Shown: in pieces, positions 1-10,871 of the stretch | Numbering within the stretch: the first letter of the stretch is position 1 | Layout of the letters: the number at the start of each line of letters is the position of its first letter | Assembly (NCBI GenBank): GCA_025350985.1 | Contig: JANXWU010000266.1 | Location: forward strand, 1 to 11,767 | Reading direction: 5' to 3' | DNA length: 11,767 nt | Origin: Spartobacteria bacterium | Lineage (GTDB): Bacteria; Verrucomicrobiota; Verrucomicrobiia; Chthoniobacterales; Chthoniobacteraceae | The notes under the pieces: generated by a model | Told to the model about the DNA's origin: nothing | Seen by the model: only the letters and a program-made list of their open reading frames with translations | Database searches by the model: none | Program-made: the position numbers and the translations under genes

Positions 1-224
1 TCAGAATGGTGAGGAGAGTTAGTTTTTTCATGGGTGTTTTGTTTTGGGTTGAACCGTGGCCGCGGCGGAAATGCCGCAGTCATTGGTGGATGGCACTGGT
101 AGCCGTTTCCCGCGCAGGTCGCAAGCGCGAAGCTGCCTGCCGGTTGTCCCGGCGCTCGGTGAGCGTCGCCATTTTTCGCGTGAGAGTTTGCGGCGACCAT
201 GGCCCGCCGCTACAACTTTTGGCG
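1..224. other. Region upstream of the propeller-cytochrome gene, with hairpin-forming sequence
   Basis: No gene is supported here, although one frame is open. It contains three self-complementary stretches: GCGGC/GCCGC at 62-66 and 73-77; GCAGGTCGC with GCGA...CCTGC at 114-140 (stem with a 5-nt bulge); and GGCGCTC-GGT-GAGCGTC at 151-167. The last is followed after GCCA by five T (172-176), so it could terminate an upstream rightward transcript. The promoter of the downstream operon may also lie here, but no convincing -35/-10 pair is seen. Confidence 0.35.
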
Positions 225-3200
225 ATGATCCGCCCCCTCTCCGCTCTCGCGCTCGTTCTCCTTTTGGCGAAAAACTTCACCCACGCCGCCGACGTGCCGA
301 AAACCGCGTCGCTCCCGAAGCCGCACCCCGACTGGAAAATCGAACTCGTCGCCGAGCCGCCAGTTTTGAAATACCCGAGCGTCGTCACCTGCGCGCCGGA
401 CGGACGCATCTTCGTCGCGCAAGACCCGGCCGACATGCCCGGCCCGAGCAACGAGCCGATCGACTCGATTCTCTGCATCCATCCCGACGGGCACATCACG
501 AAGTTCGCCGAGGGACTGCACGCCGTCTTCGGCCTCGCGTATCTCGATGGAAAACTCTTCGTCCACCACTGCCCGGATTTCAGCGTGTTTGACGACGACA
601 ACGGCGTCGGAAAAAATCGCGTCGATCTTTTCAAAACCAATCCCGACCCGAACGTCGGCGGCAAGGGTTTCAACGATCACATCCCCTCGAACATGCGGCT
701 CGCGATGGACGGCTATTTTTACATGAGCGTCGGCGACAAAGGCATCTTCAACTGCGTCGGCAAGGACGGCAGCAAAATTGAACTGCACGGCGGCGGCGTG
801 ATTCGCTTTCGCCCCGACGGCACGCATCTCGAAGTCTTCGCCACCGGCACGCGCAACCACCTCGACGTCGCCATCAACGCCGAGGACGAAATTTTCACCT
901 ACGACAACACCGACGACGGCAACGGCTGGTGGACGCGCGTCACGCACATCGTCGATGGCGGCTACTACGGCTATCCTTACGACTACCAGAAAGCGCCGCA
1001 TTTCGGAGTGACCGCCCCTTCAAAAGAAACCCTCGACGCGGAGAAGCGCAAAGTAGCGCAAGCTTCCAGCTTGCAACCCGACAACAACGCAAGCTGGAAG
1101 CTTGCGCTACCTTTCCTCCCCGCCATGACCGACTTCGGCGGTGGCTCGCCCACTGGCGCGATTTGCTACAACGAAGACGCGCTCCCCGACGAATATCGCG
1201 GCAACCTCTTCCTCTGCGAATGGGGACGCCGCCAGCTCCTGCGCCTCCGCATCTCGCGCGACGGCGCCACCTACAAAGTGGACGAGCGCGTCCAGCACGA
1301 CGGCGACGATTTCCTCGTCTCCGAAAAAGCCAGCGGCAAACGCGAGTTCCGTCCCGTCGGCATCGCCGTCTCGCCCGACGGCATGAGCTTTTACATCGCC
1401 GACTGGAACTTCGGCGGCTGGCGCGCGCCCGAGACCGCGGGGCGTTTGTTGAAAGTGACCTACACGGGAAAAAGCCACGCCACGCCCAAGCCCGCGTGGT
1501 TCGTGCCGGCGGCGACGGGAAAAAAATTCGACGCGACCGACGAGGAGTTGATCGAAGGCTTGAAACATCCCGCGCAAAGCGTGCGGATGGTCGCGCAACG
1601 GCGGCTGGCGGAGCGGGGCGAAAATGTTATTCCCAAACTGAAAGCGCTACTTGTTCGCGACGACTTGCCGCCACCGATACAAGGAGGTCATCCACTTTCA
1701 ATTTTCAAAAATGGCTCACACGAAAAAGTGCCGAACTACGCGCGCTGGCACGCAATTTGGACACTCAACGCAATTGATGGAGGCAAAACTGCGTGGGTTG
1801 AAATTCTTGCCGCTGCACAAAAAGGCGACGACACCTCGGTTCGCGCACAAGCGATGCGGCATTTCGGTGAGCACAAGGTGGAATGGGACACCGTAAATCC
1901 GACACCAGGCGTATTGAATGAAGCGCTCAATGAAAGCAATCCACAGATTCGGCGAGTCGCAGCAATCGCAATAGGGCGAATTGGAAAGAGCTATTCAAAT
2001 GGCGAGATCCTACACGCGGTAAAAAACGCGGACGATCCCCTTGTTCGTTACGCGATGCTCAGCGCGGTGAAACGAATCGGTCAAAATGATCCGTGGTGGG
2101 CTTACGTCGCCCAAAATCTCCACATAAAAGGCGTATCAAAAGCACAAAAAGAATTCGCTTTGCAAGCAATGACGGAAATTTACGACGAGGAAATTGTGAA
2201 GTCGCTCGCCAGATTCATTGCGATGGAAGACGGCGAACCGAACGTCGTCATTTTTTCCGGCAGTGTCGTTTTCTTCACTTTGGTTTTTCCAGATGAGCGC
2301 GCACACGCCCTCCGCGTCCTCGCCGAGTTGCACCGGCAGCGGCCGCCGTGGGACGGCCAATGGTGGGGCACGCAGCCGGTCAAAGGCGCGCCCGAGCCGA
2401 AGAACGTCGATTGGGCCGGCACGCCGCTCGTGCTCGCCGCCATCACCCGCGCGCTCGGCGATCCCGCGCTCGAAGTGCGCCGCGCCGCCGTCGAAGCCGT
2501 GCAGATCGCCTCGCACAAAGACGCCGCGCCCGCGCTGCGCGAGATGTTCACCCGCGAGACCGACGCCAATCTGAAAAAATCAATCCTCCTCACGCTCGGC
2601 TCGCTCAAGGACAACGCCGCCTCCCCGCTCATCGTCGGCATCCTCGAAGCCCCCGTGTCGAACGGAAAAAAAGCGCCGGTAGGGACGGCTCTCCGAGCCG
2701 TCCGCCCAGACGCGACCACGGATTCAACGCCCGAAAAAAGTTCGACGCCTGATGCGAATTCCACGCCCAGCGGACGCCTCGGAAAGGCGTCCCTACCGGC
2801 ATCGCGCGACAATTCCGCCTTGCTCGAAACCGCCATCAAAGCCGCAGGACAAATCGGCGACAAACCTTGCGTGGACGCGCTCGCGAAACTCGCCGACACC
2901 GCGACAGACGCCGACACGCTCATCCGCACGCTCGACGCGCTCGGCAACACGCACCTCGCCGAGTCCGTCGCCGCGCCCGTGAAATTGGTCGCGCACCGCG
3001 ACGCAAAAGTCCGCAACGCCGCCAGCAACGCGCTTGCAAACATCGGCGGCAACGCCGTGCTCGACGCCATCACGCCGCTGTTCGACGATCCCGTTTGGGA
3101 CGTGCGCAAAGCCGCCATCGCCACCGCCGGCGCGCTGAAAAACAAACGCGCGCTGTCGAAACTTCTCGCGCTTTACCAAATCGATGTCGTGCGCGCTGAC

Positions 3201-3935
3201 GCGCTCGCCGCGCTTGTGAAAATGCCCGACGTGCAGGCGCTCGACGTTTACCTCGACGGCCTCGGCTCAAAGGAAAACCGCATCCGCGACGAGTCGCGCA
3301 AAGCGATCGAAAACCTGCGCGACAAAGCGCTGCCGCTCGTCGAAGCACGCCACGCGAAAACGCCGTTCACCGGCCAGACGCTGCGCGAGTTGCAGCGCGC
3401 GTTCGACCGCGACGCGACCGCGCGCAAAGGCCCGCTTTTCGCCGGGGAACAAAAACCTTCCGCCGCCGCCGACTACGAAAAATTCGCGACGACGCACGAC
3501 GGCGACGCGAACAAAGGCCGCAAACTTTTCGATGAAACCGCCGGCTGCGTCCTCTGCCACGCCGTCAACGGCAAAGGCGGCCAGATCGGCCCCGAGTTGA
3601 CGGGCATCGGCACAAAATACGCGCGCGCCACGCTCATCGAGTCGGTGCTTTATCCCTCGAAACAAATCTTCGACGGCTACCGCAGCACGGTCATCACGAC
3701 CAAAAGCGGCGATGCGTTCACCGGATTTATCCGGGACGAAACTCCCGCTCAACTCGTCGTGCTCGACGCCGTCGGCGAAGCGCATCCGCTGATCAAAGAT
3801 CAGATTTTCAAGCGCGAGGAGAGCAACGTTTCGCTAATGCCCGAGGGCCTGCAAGCCGCGATGTCGCTTGCCGATTTCGCCGACCTCATCGCCTATCTCG
3901 AATCGCTCAAGGAAAAAGAAGCTGCTAAAAAGTAA
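225..3935 (+). CDS. Secreted PVC-type dehydrogenase-like beta-propeller / HEAT-repeat / cytochrome c fusion protein
   Basis: A 1236-aa exported protein in three parts. After a signal peptide (hydrophobic core about residues 5-20, likely cut after THA), residues about 25-420 form a beta-propeller of the glucose/sorbosone-dehydrogenase type, with blade motifs such as CAPDGRIFVAQD, FRPDGTHLEVFATGTRN and VSPDGMSFYIADW. Residues about 435-1035 are HEAT-like helical repeats (for example LEVRRAAVEAV, AKVRNAASNALANIG, WDVRKAAIATAGAL). Residues about 1092-1236 are a c-type haem domain with CVLCH (C1108-H1112) and a probable distal Met ligand in SLMPEG. This order matches the Pirellula/Verrucomicrobium-type membrane-bound dehydrogenase and haem-binding families. 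The likely role is periplasmic oxidation of a sugar or similar substrate with electrons passed to haem; the substrate is unknown. The reading frame is open from position 6, but ATG 225 is chosen because a good signal peptide starts there and the 73 residues upstream look non-coding. No strong Shine-Dalgarno is visible. Two in-frame palindromic repeats and an AT-rich stretch interrupt the gene. It leads the sulfatase operon. Confidence 0.9.
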   Translation: MIRPLSALALVLLLAKNFTHAADVPKTASLPKPHPDWKIELVAEPPVLKYPSVVTCAPDGRIFVAQDPADMPGPSNEPIDSILCIHPDGHITKFAEGLHAVFGLAYLDGKLFVHHCPDFSVFDDDNGVGKNRVDLFKTNPDPNVGGKGFNDHIPSNMRLAMDGYFYMSVGDKGIFNCVGKDGSKIELHGGGVIRFRPDGTHLEVFATGTRNHLDVAINAEDEIFTYDNTDDGNGWWTRVTHIVDGGYYGYPYDYQKAPHFGVTAPSKETLDAEKRKVAQASSLQPDNNASWKLALPFLPAMTDFGGGSPTGAICYNEDALPDEYRGNLFLCEWGRRQLLRLRISRDGATYKVDERVQHDGDDFLVSEKASGKREFRPVGIAVSPDGMSFYIADWNFGGWRAPETAGRLLKVTYTGKSHATPKPAWFVPAATGKKFDATDEELIEGLKHPAQSVRMVAQRRLAERGENVIPKLKALLVRDDLPPPIQGGHPLSIFKNGSHEKVPNYARWHAIWTLNAIDGGKTAWVEILAAAQKGDDTSVRAQAMRHFGEHKVEWDTVNPTPGVLNEALNESNPQIRRVAAIAIGRIGKSYSNGEILHAVKNADDPLVRYAMLSAVKRIGQNDPWWAYVAQNLHIKGVSKAQKEFALQAMTEIYDEEIVKSLARFIAMEDGEPNVVIFSGSVVFFTLVFPDERAHALRVLAELHRQRPPWDGQWWGTQPVKGAPEPKNVDWAGTPLVLAAITRALGDPALEVRRAAVEAVQIASHKDAAPALREMFTRETDANLKKSILLTLGSLKDNAASPLIVGILEAPVSNGKKAPVGTALRAVRPDATTDSTPEKSSTPDANSTPSGRLGKASLPASRDNSALLETAIKAAGQIGDKPCVDALAKLADTATDADTLIRTLDALGNTHLAESVAAPVKLVAHRDAKVRNAASNALANIGGNAVLDAITPLFDDPVWDVRKAAIATAGALKNKRALSKLLALYQIDVVRADALAALVKMPDVQALDVYLDGLGSKENRIRDESRKAIENLRDKALPLVEARHAKTPFTGQTLRELQRAFDRDATARKGPLFAGEQKPSAAADYEKFATTHDGDANKGRKLFDETAGCVLCHAVNGKGGQIGPELTGIGTKYARATLIESVLYPSKQIFDGYRSTVITTKSGDAFTGFIRDETPAQLVVLDAVGEAHPLIKDQIFKREESNVSLMPEGLQAAMSLADFADLIAYLESLKEKEAAKK
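1053..1110. repeat. Perfect 22-bp inverted repeat within the propeller gene
   Basis: Left arm 1053-1074 (beginning GTAGCGCAAGCTTCC) and right arm 1089-1110 (ending GGAAGCTTGCGCTAC) are exact reverse complements, separated by a 14-nt loop (1075-1088). It is read in frame as VAQASSL, then QPDNN, then ASWKLALP, placing about 20 residues (about 277-296) between propeller strands. The arms would form a very strong hairpin in DNA or mRNA. It looks like a REP- or MITE-like palindromic unit rather than ordinary coding sequence. Confidence 0.9.
2675..2800. repeat. 31-bp imperfect inverted repeat with nested hairpins within the HEAT region
   Basis: Arms 2675-2705 and 2770-2800 match at 28 of 31 positions as reverse complements, with 64 nt between them. 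Each arm is also a hairpin by itself: GGACGGCTC-TCC-GAGCCGTCC at 2683-2703 and GGACGCCT-CGGAA-AGGCGTCC at 2772-2792. The element is read in frame as VGTALRAVRP, a Thr/Ser/Pro/Asp-rich linker, then GRLGKASLPA, adding about 45 residues of low complexity (about 816-862) between helical repeats. Both this and the 1053-1110 element begin GTAG and end CTAC. Confidence 0.88.
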
Positions 3936-3959: not shown

Positions 3960-5567
3960 ATGAACATCCGCATAATTCTCGCCGCGTTCGCCGCGGTTGC
4001 CGCGCAACCCCCTGCCCAAGCCGCTCCCGAGCCGGCGGCCAAGCCGAACATCGTCTTCGTCCTCTGCGACGATCTCGGCTACGGCGACGTGAGCAGTCTC
4101 AACCGGCAAGGCAAAATTCCCACGCCGAACATCGACGCCCTCGCCCACGACGGCATGATTTTCACCGACGCGCACGGCAGCTCCGCCGTGTGCTCGCCGA
4201 CGCGTTATGCCATTCTCACCGGCCGCTACAACTGGCGCACGCGGCTCCAAAGCGGCGTGCTCGGCGGCATCAGCCCGCACTTGATTGACCCGTCGCGGCT
4301 CACGGTTGCGTCGCTTTTAAGAAAGCACGGCTACGCGACCGCGTGCATCGGCAAGTGGCACCTCGGCATGGACTGGCCGAAAAAAGAAAGCGACTTCAAA
4401 CCGAACGACAACATCGAAAAAGGCAGCGACGGCTGGAAGGTCGATTTTTCCAAGCCGATCACCAACGGCCCGAACGCGGTCGGGTTCGACTACTACTTCG
4501 GCATCAGCGCGTCGCTCGACATGGTGCCGTACACCTTCATCGAAAACGACCGCGTCACCGTGCAGCCGACGGTGGACAAAAAGTTCCCGATGATGCTCGG
4601 ACGCGAGGGCGGAACGACGCGCAATGGCCCGGCGGCGGCGGAGTTCGAGGCGGGCGATGTGCTGCCAACACTCACGCGCAAGGCGGTCGAATATGTCGGC
4701 TCGAAGGCGAAATCCGGCTCGCCTTTTTTCCTCTATCTGCCGCTGAACGCGCCGCACACACCGATCGCGCCGACGAAGGAGTGGCAGGGAAAAAGCGGGC
4801 TGAATCCCTACGCCGATTTCGTGATGCAGACGGACGCGTGCATCGGCGAAGTGATCGAGGCGGTGCGGAAAAACGGGCTGGCGGAGAACACTCTCTTCAT
4901 CGTGACGAGCGATAACGGTTGCTCGCCGCAGGCGAAATTCCCCGAATTGCTCGCGAAGGGACACAACCCCAGCTACGTCTTCCGGGGCACGAAGGCGGAC
5001 ATCTGGGACGGCGGGCACCACATCCCATTCGTCGCGCGCTGGCCGGGAAAAGTGAAAGCTGAATCACGCAGCGACGCACTGGTCTGCCTCGGCGATTTGC
5101 TCGCGACGTGCGCGGAAATCGTCGGCGAAAAACTGCCCGACAACGCAGGCGAGGACAGCGTCAGTTTTTTGCCGGCCCTGACCGGGAACCTCGATTCCAA
5201 GCGGCTTCGCGAGTCGATTGTGCATCACTCGGTCAGCGGACGCTTTGCGATCCGCGAGAAGAAGTGGAAGCTCGAACTCTGCCCCGGCTCGGGCGGTTGG
5301 AGCGATCCGAAGGACATTCCCGCCGCGAAACAAGGGCTGCCGTCGATTCAGCTTTACGACCTCGCCGAGGACATCGAGGAAAAGAAAAACGTCCAATCCG
5401 AGCATCCCGACGTGGTGGCACGACTGACAAAACTTTTGGAAAAACAAGTCGCTGATGGGCGCAGCACACCGGGCGCACCGCAGCCCAATGACGCGAAGAT
5501 CGACCTTTGGAAAAAGAATCTGGATGCGCCCAACAAGCCGAAGCCGGCGAAGGATGTCGGAGATTAG
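3960..5567 (+). CDS. Secreted type I sulfatase (arylsulfatase family S1)
   Basis: A 535-aa formylglycine-dependent sulfatase that would hydrolyse sulfate esters in the periplasm or outside the cell. A short hydrophobic signal peptide (about residues 1-22, ending AQA or QAA) precedes the core fold. The maturation motif CSPTR is at residues 78-82, where C78 would be converted to formylglycine. Other catalytic or metal residues seen are D37 and D38 (LCDDLGYGD), K132 and H134 (GKWHLG), H266 (NAPHTP), D318 and N319 (TSDNG) and K345 (RGTKADIWDGG). The active-site set is complete, and the length is normal for the family. It starts 24 bp after the propeller-cytochrome gene and probably shares its mRNA; the ribosome site is weak. 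It needs a formylglycine-generating enzyme encoded elsewhere. The substrate is not predictable by eye: a sulfated polysaccharide is inferred only from context. Confidence 0.95.
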   Translation: MNIRIILAAFAAVAAQPPAQAAPEPAAKPNIVFVLCDDLGYGDVSSLNRQGKIPTPNIDALAHDGMIFTDAHGSSAVCSPTRYAILTGRYNWRTRLQSGVLGGISPHLIDPSRLTVASLLRKHGYATACIGKWHLGMDWPKKESDFKPNDNIEKGSDGWKVDFSKPITNGPNAVGFDYYFGISASLDMVPYTFIENDRVTVQPTVDKKFPMMLGREGGTTRNGPAAAEFEAGDVLPTLTRKAVEYVGSKAKSGSPFFLYLPLNAPHTPIAPTKEWQGKSGLNPYADFVMQTDACIGEVIEAVRKNGLAENTLFIVTSDNGCSPQAKFPELLAKGHNPSYVFRGTKADIWDGGHHIPFVARWPGKVKAESRSDALVCLGDLLATCAEIVGEKLPDNAGEDSVSFLPALTGNLDSKRLRESIVHHSVSGRFAIREKKWKLELCPGSGGWSDPKDIPAAKQGLPSIQLYDLAEDIEEKKNVQSEHPDVVARLTKLLEKQVADGRSTPGAPQPNDAKIDLWKKNLDAPNKPKPAKDVGD

Positions 5568-6941: not shown

Positions 6942-8357
6942 CTACGGTTTGTAGGGCACGGTCCCGTTGGCATCGACTTTGTAGCCGCGCTCATGGATGT
7001 AGTCGGCGGCGGGACGAAACTCGTCGTGCGCGTCGGCGAGCATTTTTTTCAACTTCGCGTCGAGGGCGGACTGCAACCCGGCAGCCTCCGGCAACCCGGC
7101 GAGGTTTTTCATCTGGAACGGGTCGGACTCGTTGTCGAAGAGCAGCCACGGGCCTTCGAGGTCGCGGACGAAAGTATGTCGCGCGGTGCGAAGTCCGCGG
7201 TATTCGCGTCCGCCCTGCTTGCGCGTCCACTGGCCAAAGGGCGCGGGACACGCGATCAGCGCCGCGTCGCGGGGCGCATCCGCCTTCCCGAGCAGATGCG
7301 CGCTGAAATCGCGTCCCTCCACGCTCTTCGGAATCGGCACGCCGCAGAGGCCGAGCAGCGTCGGCATGAAATCCTCGGACCCGACTGGCGCGACGATTTT
7401 TTTCGATGCGATTTTTTCCGGCCAGCGGAGGAAAAGTGGAACCCGCACCGACTCGTCGAACGGCTGCTGTTTGTGGCGTCCGCCGTGCGAGCCGAGCAGG
7501 TCGCCGTGGTCGGACGTGAACACGACGATCGTGTCTTTTTCGACGCCCGCCTCCCGCAAGGTGCGCAAGAGGTCGCCGACGCAATCATCAAGGGCGGCGC
7601 AGTGCGCATAGTACCCGGCGAGCATCGTGCGTGCGGCGGACTCCATCGCGGGTGGCACATTGTCGCGCAGCTTGAAGTCGGCGGCGGAGAACAGTGCGCG
7701 ATATTTCTTCGGGGCGGTCGGGTAGGGGTCGTGGGGTGGTCCCCACGCGAGCCAGAGCAGAAACGGTTTTTCCGACTTCGCGTGCGCGCGGATGAACCGC
7801 TCGGCGTCGCGCGTCTGCGCGATGGCGTCGTAGCCTTCCCAGAACTTTTTCTCCGGCGTGTCGTCGAAGTAGGCCGAGTGGTTATAGTCGTGCGTGCAGT
7901 CGAGCACGCGCCAGTAATCGAAGCCCTGCCGCCGATCTTTGGGGATGAACGCCGAGCGTTCGCCACTGCCGTCGATGTGCCATTTGCCAATCGCGCCGGT
8001 GTCGTAGCCCGTGTCTCGGAGCACCTTTGCGAGCGTCACGGCGTCCGGCGCGAGTCGCGTGTCATTGAGAAAAACTCCGTGCGTGAGCGCGCGCTGCCCG
8101 GTGAGCAGCGAGGCGCGCGTGGGCGAGCAGACCGGCACCGATGAGACGGCGTGGACAAAATCCGCACTGGCGGCGGCGAGCGCGTCGAGGTTAGGCGTGC
8201 GCGCGTTCACGTCGCCAGCGTGGCCGAAAGCCTGCGCGCGCCACTGGTCGGCGATGACAAAAAGAATGTTGGGACGTTTTGCAGGCTCCGAAGCCGCCAG
8301 CAAGGCCGTTTGCGAGGCGATGAAGAAAAATGCCGCGACGAATGGAGATATTTTCAT
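6942..8357 (-). CDS. Secreted type I sulfatase (family S1)
   Basis: A 471-aa sulfatase distinct from the other one in this window. ATG 8357 gives a signal peptide (hydrophobic about residues 5-22, cut near LLAAS). An in-frame start at 8396 would add 13 residues, including two Cys, ahead of it and is less likely. The formylglycine motif CSPTR is at residues 77-81. Active-site residues include D37 (IADQWRA, with Gln where the other sulfatase has the second Asp), K125 and H127 (GKWHIDG), H209 (GPPHDPY), D283 and H284 (TSDHGDLLGSHG) and K296. The TSDHGDLLGSHG and DESVRVPL patterns recall the choline-sulfatase/iduronate-sulfatase-like branch; the substrate is not determined. No clear Shine-Dalgarno is visible. 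It lies 42 bp downstream of the DUF3485 gene in the same direction, but a terminator-like element sits in that gap, so it may have its own promoter. It converges with the unknown secreted gene. Confidence 0.93.
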   Translation of the reverse strand: MKISPFVAAFFFIASQTALLAASEPAKRPNILFVIADQWRAQAFGHAGDVNARTPNLDALAAASADFVHAVSSVPVCSPTRASLLTGQRALTHGVFLNDTRLAPDAVTLAKVLRDTGYDTGAIGKWHIDGSGERSAFIPKDRRQGFDYWRVLDCTHDYNHSAYFDDTPEKKFWEGYDAIAQTRDAERFIRAHAKSEKPFLLWLAWGPPHDPYPTAPKKYRALFSAADFKLRDNVPPAMESAARTMLAGYYAHCAALDDCVGDLLRTLREAGVEKDTIVVFTSDHGDLLGSHGGRHKQQPFDESVRVPLFLRWPEKIASKKIVAPVGSEDFMPTLLGLCGVPIPKSVEGRDFSAHLLGKADAPRDAALIACPAPFGQWTRKQGGREYRGLRTARHTFVRDLEGPWLLFDNESDPFQMKNLAGLPEAAGLQSALDAKLKKMLADAHDEFRPAADYIHERGYKVDANGTVPYKP

Positions 8358-8399: not shown

Positions 8400-9068
8400 T
8401 TAGGTCCCGTATTTCACCGTCGGCTTGTGAATGATCGGCACGAGTTTTTGGATGAAACTCTCGACCGTCTGATCAATCTGCGTCTCTCCCACCGCTCCGG
8501 TTTTATCCGGCAGCAAGGAGATGACCGAGACATAGGCCCAGCGCTGGTTGTAGCCTTTGAGGATGCGGTCGCGCCAGTCGATGATCGAGCGTTCGACGTG
8601 CGACGGCGTGAGGTCAGTGGAGCCGACGAACCAATAATAATCGAGCGCGTCCTTGCCCCAAGCGGCGTGGGCGTTGCGCAGGCGCGTGACTCTCAAAATG
8701 TGTCTAGCCGCGTCGAGCGCGAGCGGCACCACGCGGGAATTCTGAATCGTCCAGCCTTGCGCGCGGAGGCAGCGTTCCGCGCGGTGGATGCTGGTATTCA
8801 TGTCCTGGCCAGAGAGCACGATCGTCACGACGATTTTTTGATTGCCCTCGCCGGTGTACACTTTTCGGGAAAACTCCGTGTCCTTTCCCAGCACCAGATG
8901 CTCCTGCTCGGTGACGCCTTCATCCCGTCCCACCCACGCGCCCACATAATCGGGCAGCGCGAGATTGACGCCGAGCGGTTGCAGGCGGGGGGCCTTCGGC
9001 AAAAGGAAAACCGCCCCGAGACCCAGCAGCAAGGCGGCTTGGAGGATGACCAGGCGTTTAGTAGTCAT
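8400..9068 (-). CDS. Exosortase-associated EpsI/DUF3485 family protein
   Basis: A 222-aa protein with an N-terminal membrane anchor or signal segment (about residues 6-23) and a soluble domain outside the membrane. The segment SIHRAERCLRAQGW (H95, R96, C100) matches the conserved His-Arg-x-x-x-Cys and AQGW region of DUF3485, and DYYWFVG (residues 143-149) is the other typical block. Family members accompany exosortases, either as a C-terminal fusion or as a neighbouring gene, in exopolysaccharide and PEP-CTERM loci; their exact biochemistry is poorly defined. Its ATG at 9068 overlaps the end of the exosortase gene by 11 bp (ATGACTACTAA), which predicts translational coupling. An accessory role in exosortase function or polysaccharide-linked envelope assembly is inferred from family and position. 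Confidence 0.88.
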   Translation of the reverse strand: MTTKRLVILQAALLLGLGAVFLLPKAPRLQPLGVNLALPDYVGAWVGRDEGVTEQEHLVLGKDTEFSRKVYTGEGNQKIVVTIVLSGQDMNTSIHRAERCLRAQGWTIQNSRVVPLALDAARHILRVTRLRNAHAAWGKDALDYYWFVGSTDLTPSHVERSIIDWRDRILKGYNQRWAYVSVISLLPDKTGAVGETQIDQTVESFIQKLVPIIHKPTVKYGT

Positions 9069-10050
9069 ACTTCGTGCCCTCCCGCTGCACGACGCCTTTG
9101 GACTGTTGGGCGGTCAGCTTTTTCCAGTTCAGGTCGAGCAGTTTGCTGAAGGCGAGCATGGCCGCGAGCGCGAAGGGGAATGAAATAAAGCCTGAAATGT
9201 GATGATACTTTCCGCCGGCGAGGTTGGCGTTGAAGAGCCGCGCCACGACGATGATCGTGAAGATGCGCCCGGCGTTGCCGATGATCGCGAAGAGCAGCGA
9301 GGCCGCGAACGTTGTGACTTTTTTCCACATCGCCATCTCGGTCAGATGCACGTAAACCGCCGTGAGCATCGTGAGCGCGGTGATGGACCGAATGCCGCTG
9401 CACCCTTCGGCGACTTGAAAATTAAAGCTCCGATCCGCCGCCATGATCGTGGTGCCCACGGACTGGATGTTCAGGCCGACCACGTTTCCGATGAAGCCGA
9501 CCATCCAGGTGACAGAGCCTTGGAGCCGCGCCGTCATCGGCTCCAGCGCACCGAGCGGGAGCATGAAAAAGAGAAACGCGCAGGGGAAAAAAATGATCCG
9601 CGCGACATGCCGGCCCCAGAGGAAAAAAGTGGCTCCGAAGAGAATGAAGGGCACGGCAAGCATGGCCAATCGCGCCTCCAACACGCGCGCGCTCGCCGCG
9701 AAAAGAAGCACGCCGATGCCCAAAAACACCAAGCCACGCGAGTCGCCCCTTTTGGGTGCAGCACGGAGTTTTTCGCGCGCATTCCAAAACAGCCAGAGCG
9801 AAATCGGGGGCACGATCATGCAGTAATCCTGCTCGCTCTCCGCGTTCCACGACAGCCATGCCCACTGCGCGGCGGTTTCGCTGCCATTGACAAAAATGCG
9901 GATGAAGCCGAAGAAAAAAACCAGCGTGCCGGCGACCGCCGCCAGCAGCAGGGCCTGGAGTGGATTGGCCCGGCACCACGAGAAGAAGTTTGCGCATTGG
10001 CCGCGCAGGCCATTCTCTTTTTCGGTAGGGGGGTGCAAAGTTGCCTCCAT
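9058..10050 (-). CDS. Exosortase (transpeptidase-like membrane protein)
   Basis: A 330-aa integral membrane protein with several hydrophobic helices (for example about 31-53, 105-121, 129-146, 150-166, 183-195, 224-236, 245-260, 288-303). It has the exosortase/archaeosortase catalytic triad: Cys217 in VAEGCSGIRS, Arg262 in GNAGRIF, and His283 or His284 in YHHISGF. Exosortases cut C-terminal sorting tags (PEP-CTERM type) of exported proteins and attach or release them at the envelope. No tagged substrate lies in this window: neither sulfatase, nor the unknown secreted protein, nor the propeller protein ends in a PEP-CTERM helix. ATG 10050 is preferred. A GTG at 10101 in the same frame would add 17 residues but would abut the divergent glycosyltransferase start. 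The exosortase subfamily was not determined. Confidence 0.93.
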   Translation of the reverse strand: MEATLHPPTEKENGLRGQCANFFSWCRANPLQALLLAAVAGTLVFFFGFIRIFVNGSETAAQWAWLSWNAESEQDYCMIVPPISLWLFWNAREKLRAAPKRGDSRGLVFLGIGVLLFAASARVLEARLAMLAVPFILFGATFFLWGRHVARIIFFPCAFLFFMLPLGALEPMTARLQGSVTWMVGFIGNVVGLNIQSVGTTIMAADRSFNFQVAEGCSGIRSITALTMLTAVYVHLTEMAMWKKVTTFAASLLFAIIGNAGRIFTIIVVARLFNANLAGGKYHHISGFISFPFALAAMLAFSKLLDLNWKKLTAQQSKGVVQREGTKYDY

Positions 10051-10103
10051 AAATTGCTGGCGGACACTACTTATAAATCCGCCCCGTCGCAAACCCACCA
10101 CGC
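10051..10103. promoter_or_regulatory. Candidate divergent promoter region between exosortase and glycosyltransferase genes
   Basis: A gap of 53 bp separates the two divergent start codons. It holds one AT-rich island, ACTTATAAATC, with palindromic TTATAA at 10071-10076, in otherwise GC-rich sequence. It could serve as a -10 element in either direction (TATAAA on plus, TATAAG on minus). The possible -35 partners, TTGCTG at 10054-10059 on plus and TTGCGA at 10092-10087 on minus, have spacers of about 11-12 nt, which is too short for a standard sigma-70 promoter. The call therefore rests mainly on position and composition. Confidence 0.3.
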
Positions 10104-10871
10104 ATGGAACCTGAGCTAAAAACTCCAGAAATCTGCGAAATCCTCGGCAGCCGGGTGGCGGTCACGGACTACGCGGAAGCGGTGGCCATTGCGCGGACGT
10201 GCGCGGCGCGCCACGATCGCGTGTTCGCCATCGAAGCGGCTAACACGCACGTCCTCGCGCTCGCCCGGCACGATGTCGGGTTCGGGCGCGCGATGGCAAA
10301 ATTCGATTTACTGCTGCCAGATGGAATGCCGCTCGTTTGGCTGATCAATCGCCACGCCAAGCCCCCGCTTCGGGACCGGGTTTACGGTCCGACACTTATG
10401 CTGCGCTGTCTGGCGGCGACGGAGGGCGAGCACTCCCACTTCCTGCTCGGTGGCTCGGAGGAGTTGCTACAAACCCTTCAACTCAAGCTCCGGGAAACAT
10501 TTCCGAAACTTCAAATCGCGGGTGCATATTCCCCCCCGTTCGGCCCATGGCCCGAAGGTGAAGACGCTGCCATCGCCGACCGCATTGCAAAATCCGGGGC
10601 CCGCTTCGTGTGGGTGGGTCTGGGTTGTCCGAAGCAGGAGCTTTGGATCGCCCGGAACAAGGAGCGGCTTCCGAATGCCGTGTTCGTCGGCATTGGCGCG
10701 GCCTTTGCCTTCCATGCCGGACGAGTGCGGCAGGCCCCGGCTTGGATGCAAAACTCGGGCTTGGAGTGGTGCTTTCGTTTGCTCACCGAACCGCGCCGCC
10801 TTTTCGGGCGCTATGTTCGTTACAATAGTCTGTTCCTTTACTACCTGCTGCGCGAAAGACTAAGTCGCTGA
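10104..10871 (+). CDS. WecG/TagA/CpsF-family glycosyltransferase (GT26)
   Basis: A 255-aa enzyme of the family that transfers a hexosamine-type sugar (N-acetylmannosamine or its uronic acid in characterised members) from UDP-sugar to an undecaprenyl-diphosphate-linked acceptor at the inner membrane. Family blocks seen are AIEAANTHV (residues 42-50), the catalytic-region LLLPDGMPLVW (69-79, Asp73), FLLGG (113-117), VWVGLGCPKQE (169-179) and the C-terminal FHAGRVRQAPAWMQNSGLEW (203-222), followed by the basic, aromatic tail RRLFGRYVRYNSLFLYYLL that characterised members use for membrane association. The length fits the family. No Shine-Dalgarno is evident. It is divergent from the exosortase gene, a usual setting for exopolysaccharide synthesis genes. 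The sugar donor cannot be told from sequence alone. Confidence 0.93.
   Translation: MEPELKTPEICEILGSRVAVTDYAEAVAIARTCAARHDRVFAIEAANTHVLALARHDVGFGRAMAKFDLLLPDGMPLVWLINRHAKPPLRDRVYGPTLMLRCLAATEGEHSHFLLGGSEELLQTLQLKLRETFPKLQIAGAYSPPFGPWPEGEDAAIADRIAKSGARFVWVGLGCPKQELWIARNKERLPNAVFVGIGAAFAFHAGRVRQAPAWMQNSGLEWCFRLLTEPRRLFGRYVRYNSLFLYYLLRERLSR

Follow-up and report, generated by a model that had tools for sequence, protein, structure and literature searches.

Introduction

Repetitive extragenic palindromic sequences (REPs) carrying a GTAG tag have been described within genes, and the intragenic ones were most numerous in Opitutus terrae, a verrucomicrobium (PMC3733652). According to that source, more than half of the intragenic inserts are dimers or groups, which encode 20–30 residues, DNA ligase is among the hosts, and the REP-associated tyrosine transposases (RAYTs) flanked by REPs were named REPtrons. 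REPINs, in which two inverted REPs and their spacer form one unit, were defined in Pseudomonas fluorescens SBW25, where compensatory changes are common (PMC3116915). For three RAYTs, both the GTAG motif and the palindrome were reported to matter, to differing degrees (PMC8266576). Here, we analyzed an 11,767-nucleotide stretch of DNA from a Spartobacteria bacterium (assembly GCA_025350985.1, contig JANXWU010000266.1; hereafter, the window), in which a REPIN at positions 2675–2800 lies in frame within a gene encoding HEAT repeats. An earlier note on the same sequence had drawn attention to this element and to a paired difference between its two arms.

The closest counterparts are the intragenic REPs of O. 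terrae, which likewise are GTAG hairpins, often head-to-head dimers and wholly inside reading frames, with DNA ligase as a host gene and with RAYT genes flanked by such repeats (PMC3733652). The organism is another one, apparently with other host genes, and the two sets are compared here by description rather than by consensus sequence. Further, the GTAG-17 dimers of O. terrae have spacers of 1–2 bp, whereas those of the window REP family in this genome measure 48–68 nt; 2-nt spacers occur in 30 of the 98 listed dimers of the family. The SBW25 elements share the inverted doublet and spacer folding as a hairpin, the copying as a unit, the compensatory changes and the RAYT partner, but are nearly all extragenic (PMC3116915), while three (probably four) of the eight elements in this genome are in frame. 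The BIME/REP elements of Escherichia coli with TnpA-REP are alike in the GTAG tag, the hairpin, the REP plus inverted REP and the single-strand tyrosine transposase; unlike the window copy, they are mostly intergenic, and REP cutting by the corresponding RAYT described below is putative (PMC8266576). Lastly, Rickettsia palindromic elements also occur in frame in unrelated genes, yet RPE-4 and RPE-6 carry the tag CGTC instead of GTAG with a RAYT, a comparison made by tag alone (as given in PMC3733652). The words Verrucomicrobia and intragenic REPs do not occur in the available text of PMC12306157, and searches of the open-access literature found no more recent work on Verrucomicrobia with REPs in frame, which cannot show absence.

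Results

Structure of the REPIN

The element comprises 126 nt (42 codons) on the plus strand, in frame with the host gene, and consists of two GTAG-tagged REPs arranged head to head around a spacer. The left arm (2675–2705, plus strand) carries GTAG at 2679–2682, followed by a stem formed by 2683–2691 with 2695–2703 and a loop at 2692–2694. The spacer (2706–2769, plus strand) is read as a low-complexity peptide rich in S, T, P and D. The right arm (2770–2800), which belongs to the GCC type discussed below, lies on the minus strand, with its GTAG appearing as CTAC at 2793–2796 and its stem formed by 2772–2780 with 2784–2792. Thus, in each arm the tag abuts a 9-bp stem with a 3-nt loop, both arms having this fold in common, and predicted folding energies were -17.7 and -16.1 kcal/mol (RNA parameters). 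In agreement with what the note had reported, the repeat, the stems and the frame were all recovered, the encoded insert, with its many S, T, P and D residues, was of low complexity, and the frame matched HEAT_2 and HEAT in the surrounding region. The observation itself is therefore confirmed.

The two 31-nt arms are inverted, 64 nt apart and match at 28 of 31 positions (90% complementary); the pair was the first inverted repeat in the window's listing. As a control, ten first-order Markov versions of the window were searched for 31-nt inverted repeats that match at 28 or more positions and have their arms no more than about 150 nt apart, and none contained one, in comparison with one in the real sequence. 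The three differences fall at index 14 (2688, G/C), index 17 (2691, C/T) and index 24 (2698, C/G). Index 14 and 24 are indeed partners when each arm folds on itself, as G-C in one and as C-G in the other, although the position of index 24 is 2698 and not 2699 as first given. Index 17 pairs with index 21, where the change from C-G to T-G keeps a standard pair. When the DNA of 2665–2810 was folded, it was far more stable than expected (z -5.3; none of 200 shuffles was equally stable), and the minimum-energy fold is a single long hairpin in which one arm pairs with the other, in place of two separate hairpins. Of the three forward frames across the element, only the one in use is free of stops.

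Copies in the genome and distribution of the family

The earlier note had proposed that further genomic copies of the arm be collected. In this draft genome (2.74 Mb, 542 contigs, 88% complete) 12 arms were found at up to 3 mismatches, which make up eight elements, few beside REP-rich species, while the pattern read backwards as a control gave 0 matches at the same threshold. Contigs C465 (the window), C46, C236, C330 and C218 hold one element each, and C433 holds three, one of which has a single arm. Some decay was apparent, with one extra base in an arm of the C330 and of the C218 elements and, in C236, a second arm whose loop is in the opposite sense.

Arms of the window REP family at up to 1 mismatch were present, in numbers from 1 to 77, in 22 of 147 genomes, a set made up of the genome of the window and those of its family and order. 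A scan of named genomes returned 101 stretches carrying the family, with titles comprising Opitutae, Opitutaceae, other Verrucomicrobia, Chthoniobacter, a Spartobacteria metagenome-assembled genome (MAG), Kiritimatiellae, a Pontiellaceae MAG and Lentisphaerae; 12 were titled merely "uncultured bacterium" and eight came from one MAG titled Oscillospiraceae (JAITDM; loci L054, L061, L067, L095, L133, L140, L141 and L143). That last title may be mistaken, since the other titled records belong to Verrucomicrobia, Kiritimatiellae, Lentisphaerae and their kin.

Covariation of the stem and the two arm types

To the interpretation of the 14/24 difference as a compensatory change, the family as a whole and the window copy give different answers. 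We gathered 277 arms at up to 4 substitutions, 233 of them at up to 2; covariation was analyzed in 56 distinct arms at up to 2 substitutions, with a pattern that left stem positions 11–14 and 20–21 free. In this numbering, pair 11/21 corresponds to index 14/24, and the cells counted are sequences, not events, as copies are related by descent. Standard pairs occupied 93.8% of the stem cells compared to 85.2% in shuffles; the covariation score was 0.294 versus 0.139 in shuffles (0 of 500 reached it) and at most 0.068 when the pattern was slid; and both sides had changed in 46 cells versus 16.3 in shuffles. Covariation was strongest at pair 11/21, one of the pairs for which the earlier note had proposed such a test, with G-C in 25 arms, C-G in 22, T-A in 2, G-T or T-G in 2 and no pairing in 5. 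In L051–L130 (80 of the 101 stretches), for which the search pattern allowed either G or C at both partner positions, pairing was seen in 82 of 83 distinct hits. The stem of the window REP family is thus kept by complementary changes: the two findings named beforehand as contradicting the idea, a lack of other copies and substitutions that do not preserve pairing, were looked for, and instead copies were found whose substitutions are mostly compatible with pairing.

In the window copy, by contrast, no compensatory mutations need have occurred. When the elements are oriented so that the GGC arm comes first, the second arm is of the GCC type in C465, C330, both two-armed elements of C433 (C433a and C433b) and C218, that is, in five of the seven two-armed elements of this genome; it is not in C46, in C236 or in the copy of a Chthoniobacter MAG (G026). 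Consequently, the window arms are combined as in most units of this genome, and the difference between them would have arrived with the copy. As judged from the arms compared, the G-C/C-G change at 14/24 separates two persistent types of arm and is not an event in this copy. These data support the view that copying of a structured unit accounts for the window copy, whereas selection on the hairpin is visible in the family as a whole.

Relatedness of the spacers bears on the same point. C465/C46 (z 5.5), C46/G026 (z 5.2) and C433a/C433b (z 5.6) have related spacers, which suggests that at least these units were probably copied whole.

A preference for unlike arms within dimers was also considered and rejected. 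In 53 of 64 dimers (arms at up to 2 mismatches) the arms differed at 11/21, compared to 38.5 ± 3.3 in shuffles (maximum 50 in 2000), and among all 90 dimers 69 differed, with mostly unlike arms in 26 of 39 genomes (in one of the 90 dimers the arms overlap). However, with one dimer taken per genome the excess was lost (25.9 unlike versus 22.8, reached by 15.5% of shuffles), so that the pattern reflects amplified lineages and no rule.

A RAYT gene flanked by window-family REPs

A RAYT, the presence of which had been put forward as a further check, was found in the genome. Three frames matched Y1_Tnp, on C433, C233 and C300. The C433 frame (177 aa; L016, 2023–2556, minus strand) is a RAYT according to NCBIfam NF047646 (97 bits, cut-off 80); a single REP of the window family overlaps its 5' end and a window-family REPIN is located beyond its 3' end, so that the gene is flanked by REPs of the same family. 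The C233 match is IS200-like, and the C300 match scored 85 bits, above the RAYT cut-off, with no window-family REP in its fetched locus.

Similar arrangements recur elsewhere. Window-family REPs lie within 400 bp on both sides of a RAYT in L058, L080, L088, L100, L104 and L129, and genomes G112 and G080 likewise have a RAYT with window-family arms in the fetched stretches, making eight further loci beyond C433, with L058 and L100 being orthologous places. No window-family REP was found near two RAYTs of G046. In a tree of 33 RAYTs, the seven REP-flanked ones fell on one side of a branch, and none of 500 label shuffles was as tight. As an observation in its own right, the RAYT in L104 (973–1667), from a Kiritimatiellae MAG, has clusters of window-family REPs on both sides, including tandem direct copies.

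The host gene, the insertion site and homologues

The host gene (213–3935, plus strand) encodes DUF7133, HEAT repeats and cytochrome c in 1240 aa if counted from 213; the start is uncertain, as the open frame extends back to base 3. Its domain matches are HEAT_2, HEAT, DUF7133, GSDH and cytochrome c, and the REPIN lengthens one loop in the HEAT-repeat region of the predicted protein by about 42 amino acids, leaving the frame intact. The proposed comparison with homologues lacking the insert was made: all five that were aligned (same family of genomes; 30–32% identical over the long aligned part) have none at the place of 2675–2800, and the gene is collinear with them on either side. In a separate DNA search of one G091 REPIN against the eight genomes of its genus, no clean empty site was found, the places matching its flanks holding other sequence.

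These comparisons also bear on whether the repeat was joined into the gene by an assembly error, for which one could invoke the 542 contigs of the draft and the repetitive nature of REPs. We consider this hardly credible, since the repeat is merely 126 nt long, collinearity extends to both sides with the frame kept, and the same is seen in other genes and other assemblies.

The stability of the fold could, on the other hand, suggest that the hairpin is retained here for a role in the host transcript, such as pausing, protection from RNase or control of translation, mobility being only its history. The z of -5.3 would be in line with such a role. Yet the aligned homologues manage without the hairpin at this place, the same family occurs in unrelated genes and between genes, and the structure is common to all copies, for which reason the fold is uninformative on this particular site; a transcript role is therefore very improbable.

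One of the five aligned homologues, that of the Chthoniobacter MAG (G026, L086), and its near-identical counterpart in G029 (L094) do contain an in-frame member of the window REP family, but some 50 residues farther upstream and between a different set of helices in the HEAT region. Within the window gene itself, a second in-frame inverted pair at 1053–1110 (plus strand) belongs to another GTAG-tagged hairpin family with 33 genome matches at up to 3 mismatches, a count in which one place figures on both strands; its sequence begins GTAGCGCAAGCTTCC. At the corresponding place, G026 has an unrelated inverted repeat, read by eye, before the largely conserved FLPAMTDFG. A single-sequence AlphaFold2 model of 2433–3242 drew the insert mostly as coil between helices, but it was poor (mean pLDDT 48.3) and was not taken as evidence.

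Other in-frame copies and occupancy of coding sequence

Besides the window copy, the C236 REP lies inside DNA_ligase_A_N, a domain of a protein that combines an ATP-dependent DNA ligase with a metallo-hydrolase part; this gene has 102 nt (34 codons) more than its three aligned relatives, all of which read straight through. The C46 REP separates the propeller repeats encoded by its gene from the peptidase parts (PA and M28), an extra stretch compared to six of seven aligned relatives, the seventh (L242, from G026) having the same break, 9 nt wide. The C330 copy is probably in frame as well, close to the N-terminus in a frame that spans at least 686 aa. Also in C330 (L019, 60–130), an upstream frame encodes GPASSLSSSQPDRQDACPT, which resembles a further in-frame palindromic repeat family.

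That the insert is in frame, free of stops and low in complexity would also fit its being retained for its peptide, as a useful linker on which the protein has come to depend. Two further observations agree with this: one in-frame site of a gene is occupied in two MAGs, by a single arm (L078, 481–506) and by a dimer (L120, 2371–2453), the two copies differing by the loss of 45 nt (15 codons) with the frame kept; and an in-frame copy common to G026 and G029 lies in the same host gene family. However, the forward arm peptide is PVGTALRAVR in the window and GRDGSPSRP in C46, C236 and C330, and other places read the reverse, which argues that no one peptide was selected. As all five homologues do without the insert, retention as a linker has, in our judgment, as slight a probability as the transcript role.

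For the family at large, coding sequence was called with a custom hexamer coding score, not a gene finder. By this score, a single open coding frame ran through both flanks in 16 of 154 elements. When the flanks were shortened, 19 of the 138 elements away from locus edges had same-frame coding on both sides, 15 of them stop-free, compared to 909 of 1493 random 99-nt holes with coding flanks in the same frame at the same loci. Coding sequence is strongly under-occupied by the window REP family, through selection or target choice, and the family as a whole is mostly extragenic, unlike the window copy. Among the elements with both flanks coding, 15 kept an open frame, 4 kept the frame but contained a stop and 11 were shifted; 13 of the 15 are independent, L182/L188 and L078/L120 being orthologous sites. 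Frame enrichment is not claimed, since shifted elements may lie between neighboring genes. Likewise, an apparently higher conservation of arms than of flanks at orthologous sites was not used, given that loci were collected by exact arm match, which selects for it; two L122 rows, set one base off, and the last row, on the wrong strand, were disregarded there.

Elsewhere in the window, an exosortase (EpsH-type) gene adjoins a DUF3485 gene and a WecG/TagA/CpsF glycosyltransferase gene (8400–10871), and two sulfatase genes lie at 3960–5567 and 6942–8357.

Discussion

Taken together, these results make it highly probable that 2675–2800 is a REPIN, a non-autonomous mobile unit served by the C433 RAYT, which was inserted in a loop of the HEAT region. 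Following published work on other RAYTs, the C433 enzyme, a single-strand tyrosine transposase, would recognize an arm by its GTAG tag and its hairpin and cut adjacent to it, and cutting would let the unit be copied and moved. One such unit would then have been inserted in the loop of the host gene. Copies that persist in coding sequence would be those in frame and stop-free in the frame used, read as a low-complexity peptide. Movement by this particular RAYT is thus putative, and the insert is presumably translated and probably near-neutral for the protein.

Several findings weigh against this reading. Movement was not observed, and the empty sites come from homologues of 30–32% identity and not from strains; relatives are too diverged for an exact target, junction or duplication to be read. 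Pair 12/20 is the worst of the stem, unpaired in 13 of 56 arms, and only 5 of 28 spacer pairs reach z ≥ 2.5, most pairs in this genome being without clear kinship. With regard to the transposase, a window-family REP lies within 400 bp of only 2 of the 30 best-scoring RAYT loci of the order (in the genome of C433 and in L208), and a RAYT match (E 0.001) was present in all 22 genomes with the REP but also in 88 of the 125 without it. Since RAYTs are common in REP-less genomes, the link between this RAYT and the family rests on the flanking and on the tree, in which the grouping is moderate (78/98; 72% of 200 bootstrap trees, with the bootstrap unsettled and some branches long).

Intragenic GTAG REPs being already in print, the in-frame REPIN described here clearly adds a new case to a phenomenon that is already known. 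A broader proposal, that REPINs served by RAYTs are a recurrent source of new protein segments in this lineage and that permissive loops collect inserts repeatedly, is offered tentatively, and we regard it as somewhat doubtful. It draws on one loop that holds the second-family dimer here and an unrelated palindrome in the Chthoniobacter MAG, on two inter-helix loops about 50 residues apart that hold the same REPIN family in two genera, and on the three (probably four) of eight copies that read as protein.

The arms of this REPIN also call for caution, in that two arms of a single copy can show a paired difference although no compensatory evolution took place at that site. REPs are usually considered extragenic, and in-frame copies, together with empty sites and a RAYT, let the tolerance of protein loops for such inserts be asked about in this family. 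The in-frame set bears, too, on how often a mobile hairpin becomes protein and on which RAYT lineage serves which REP.
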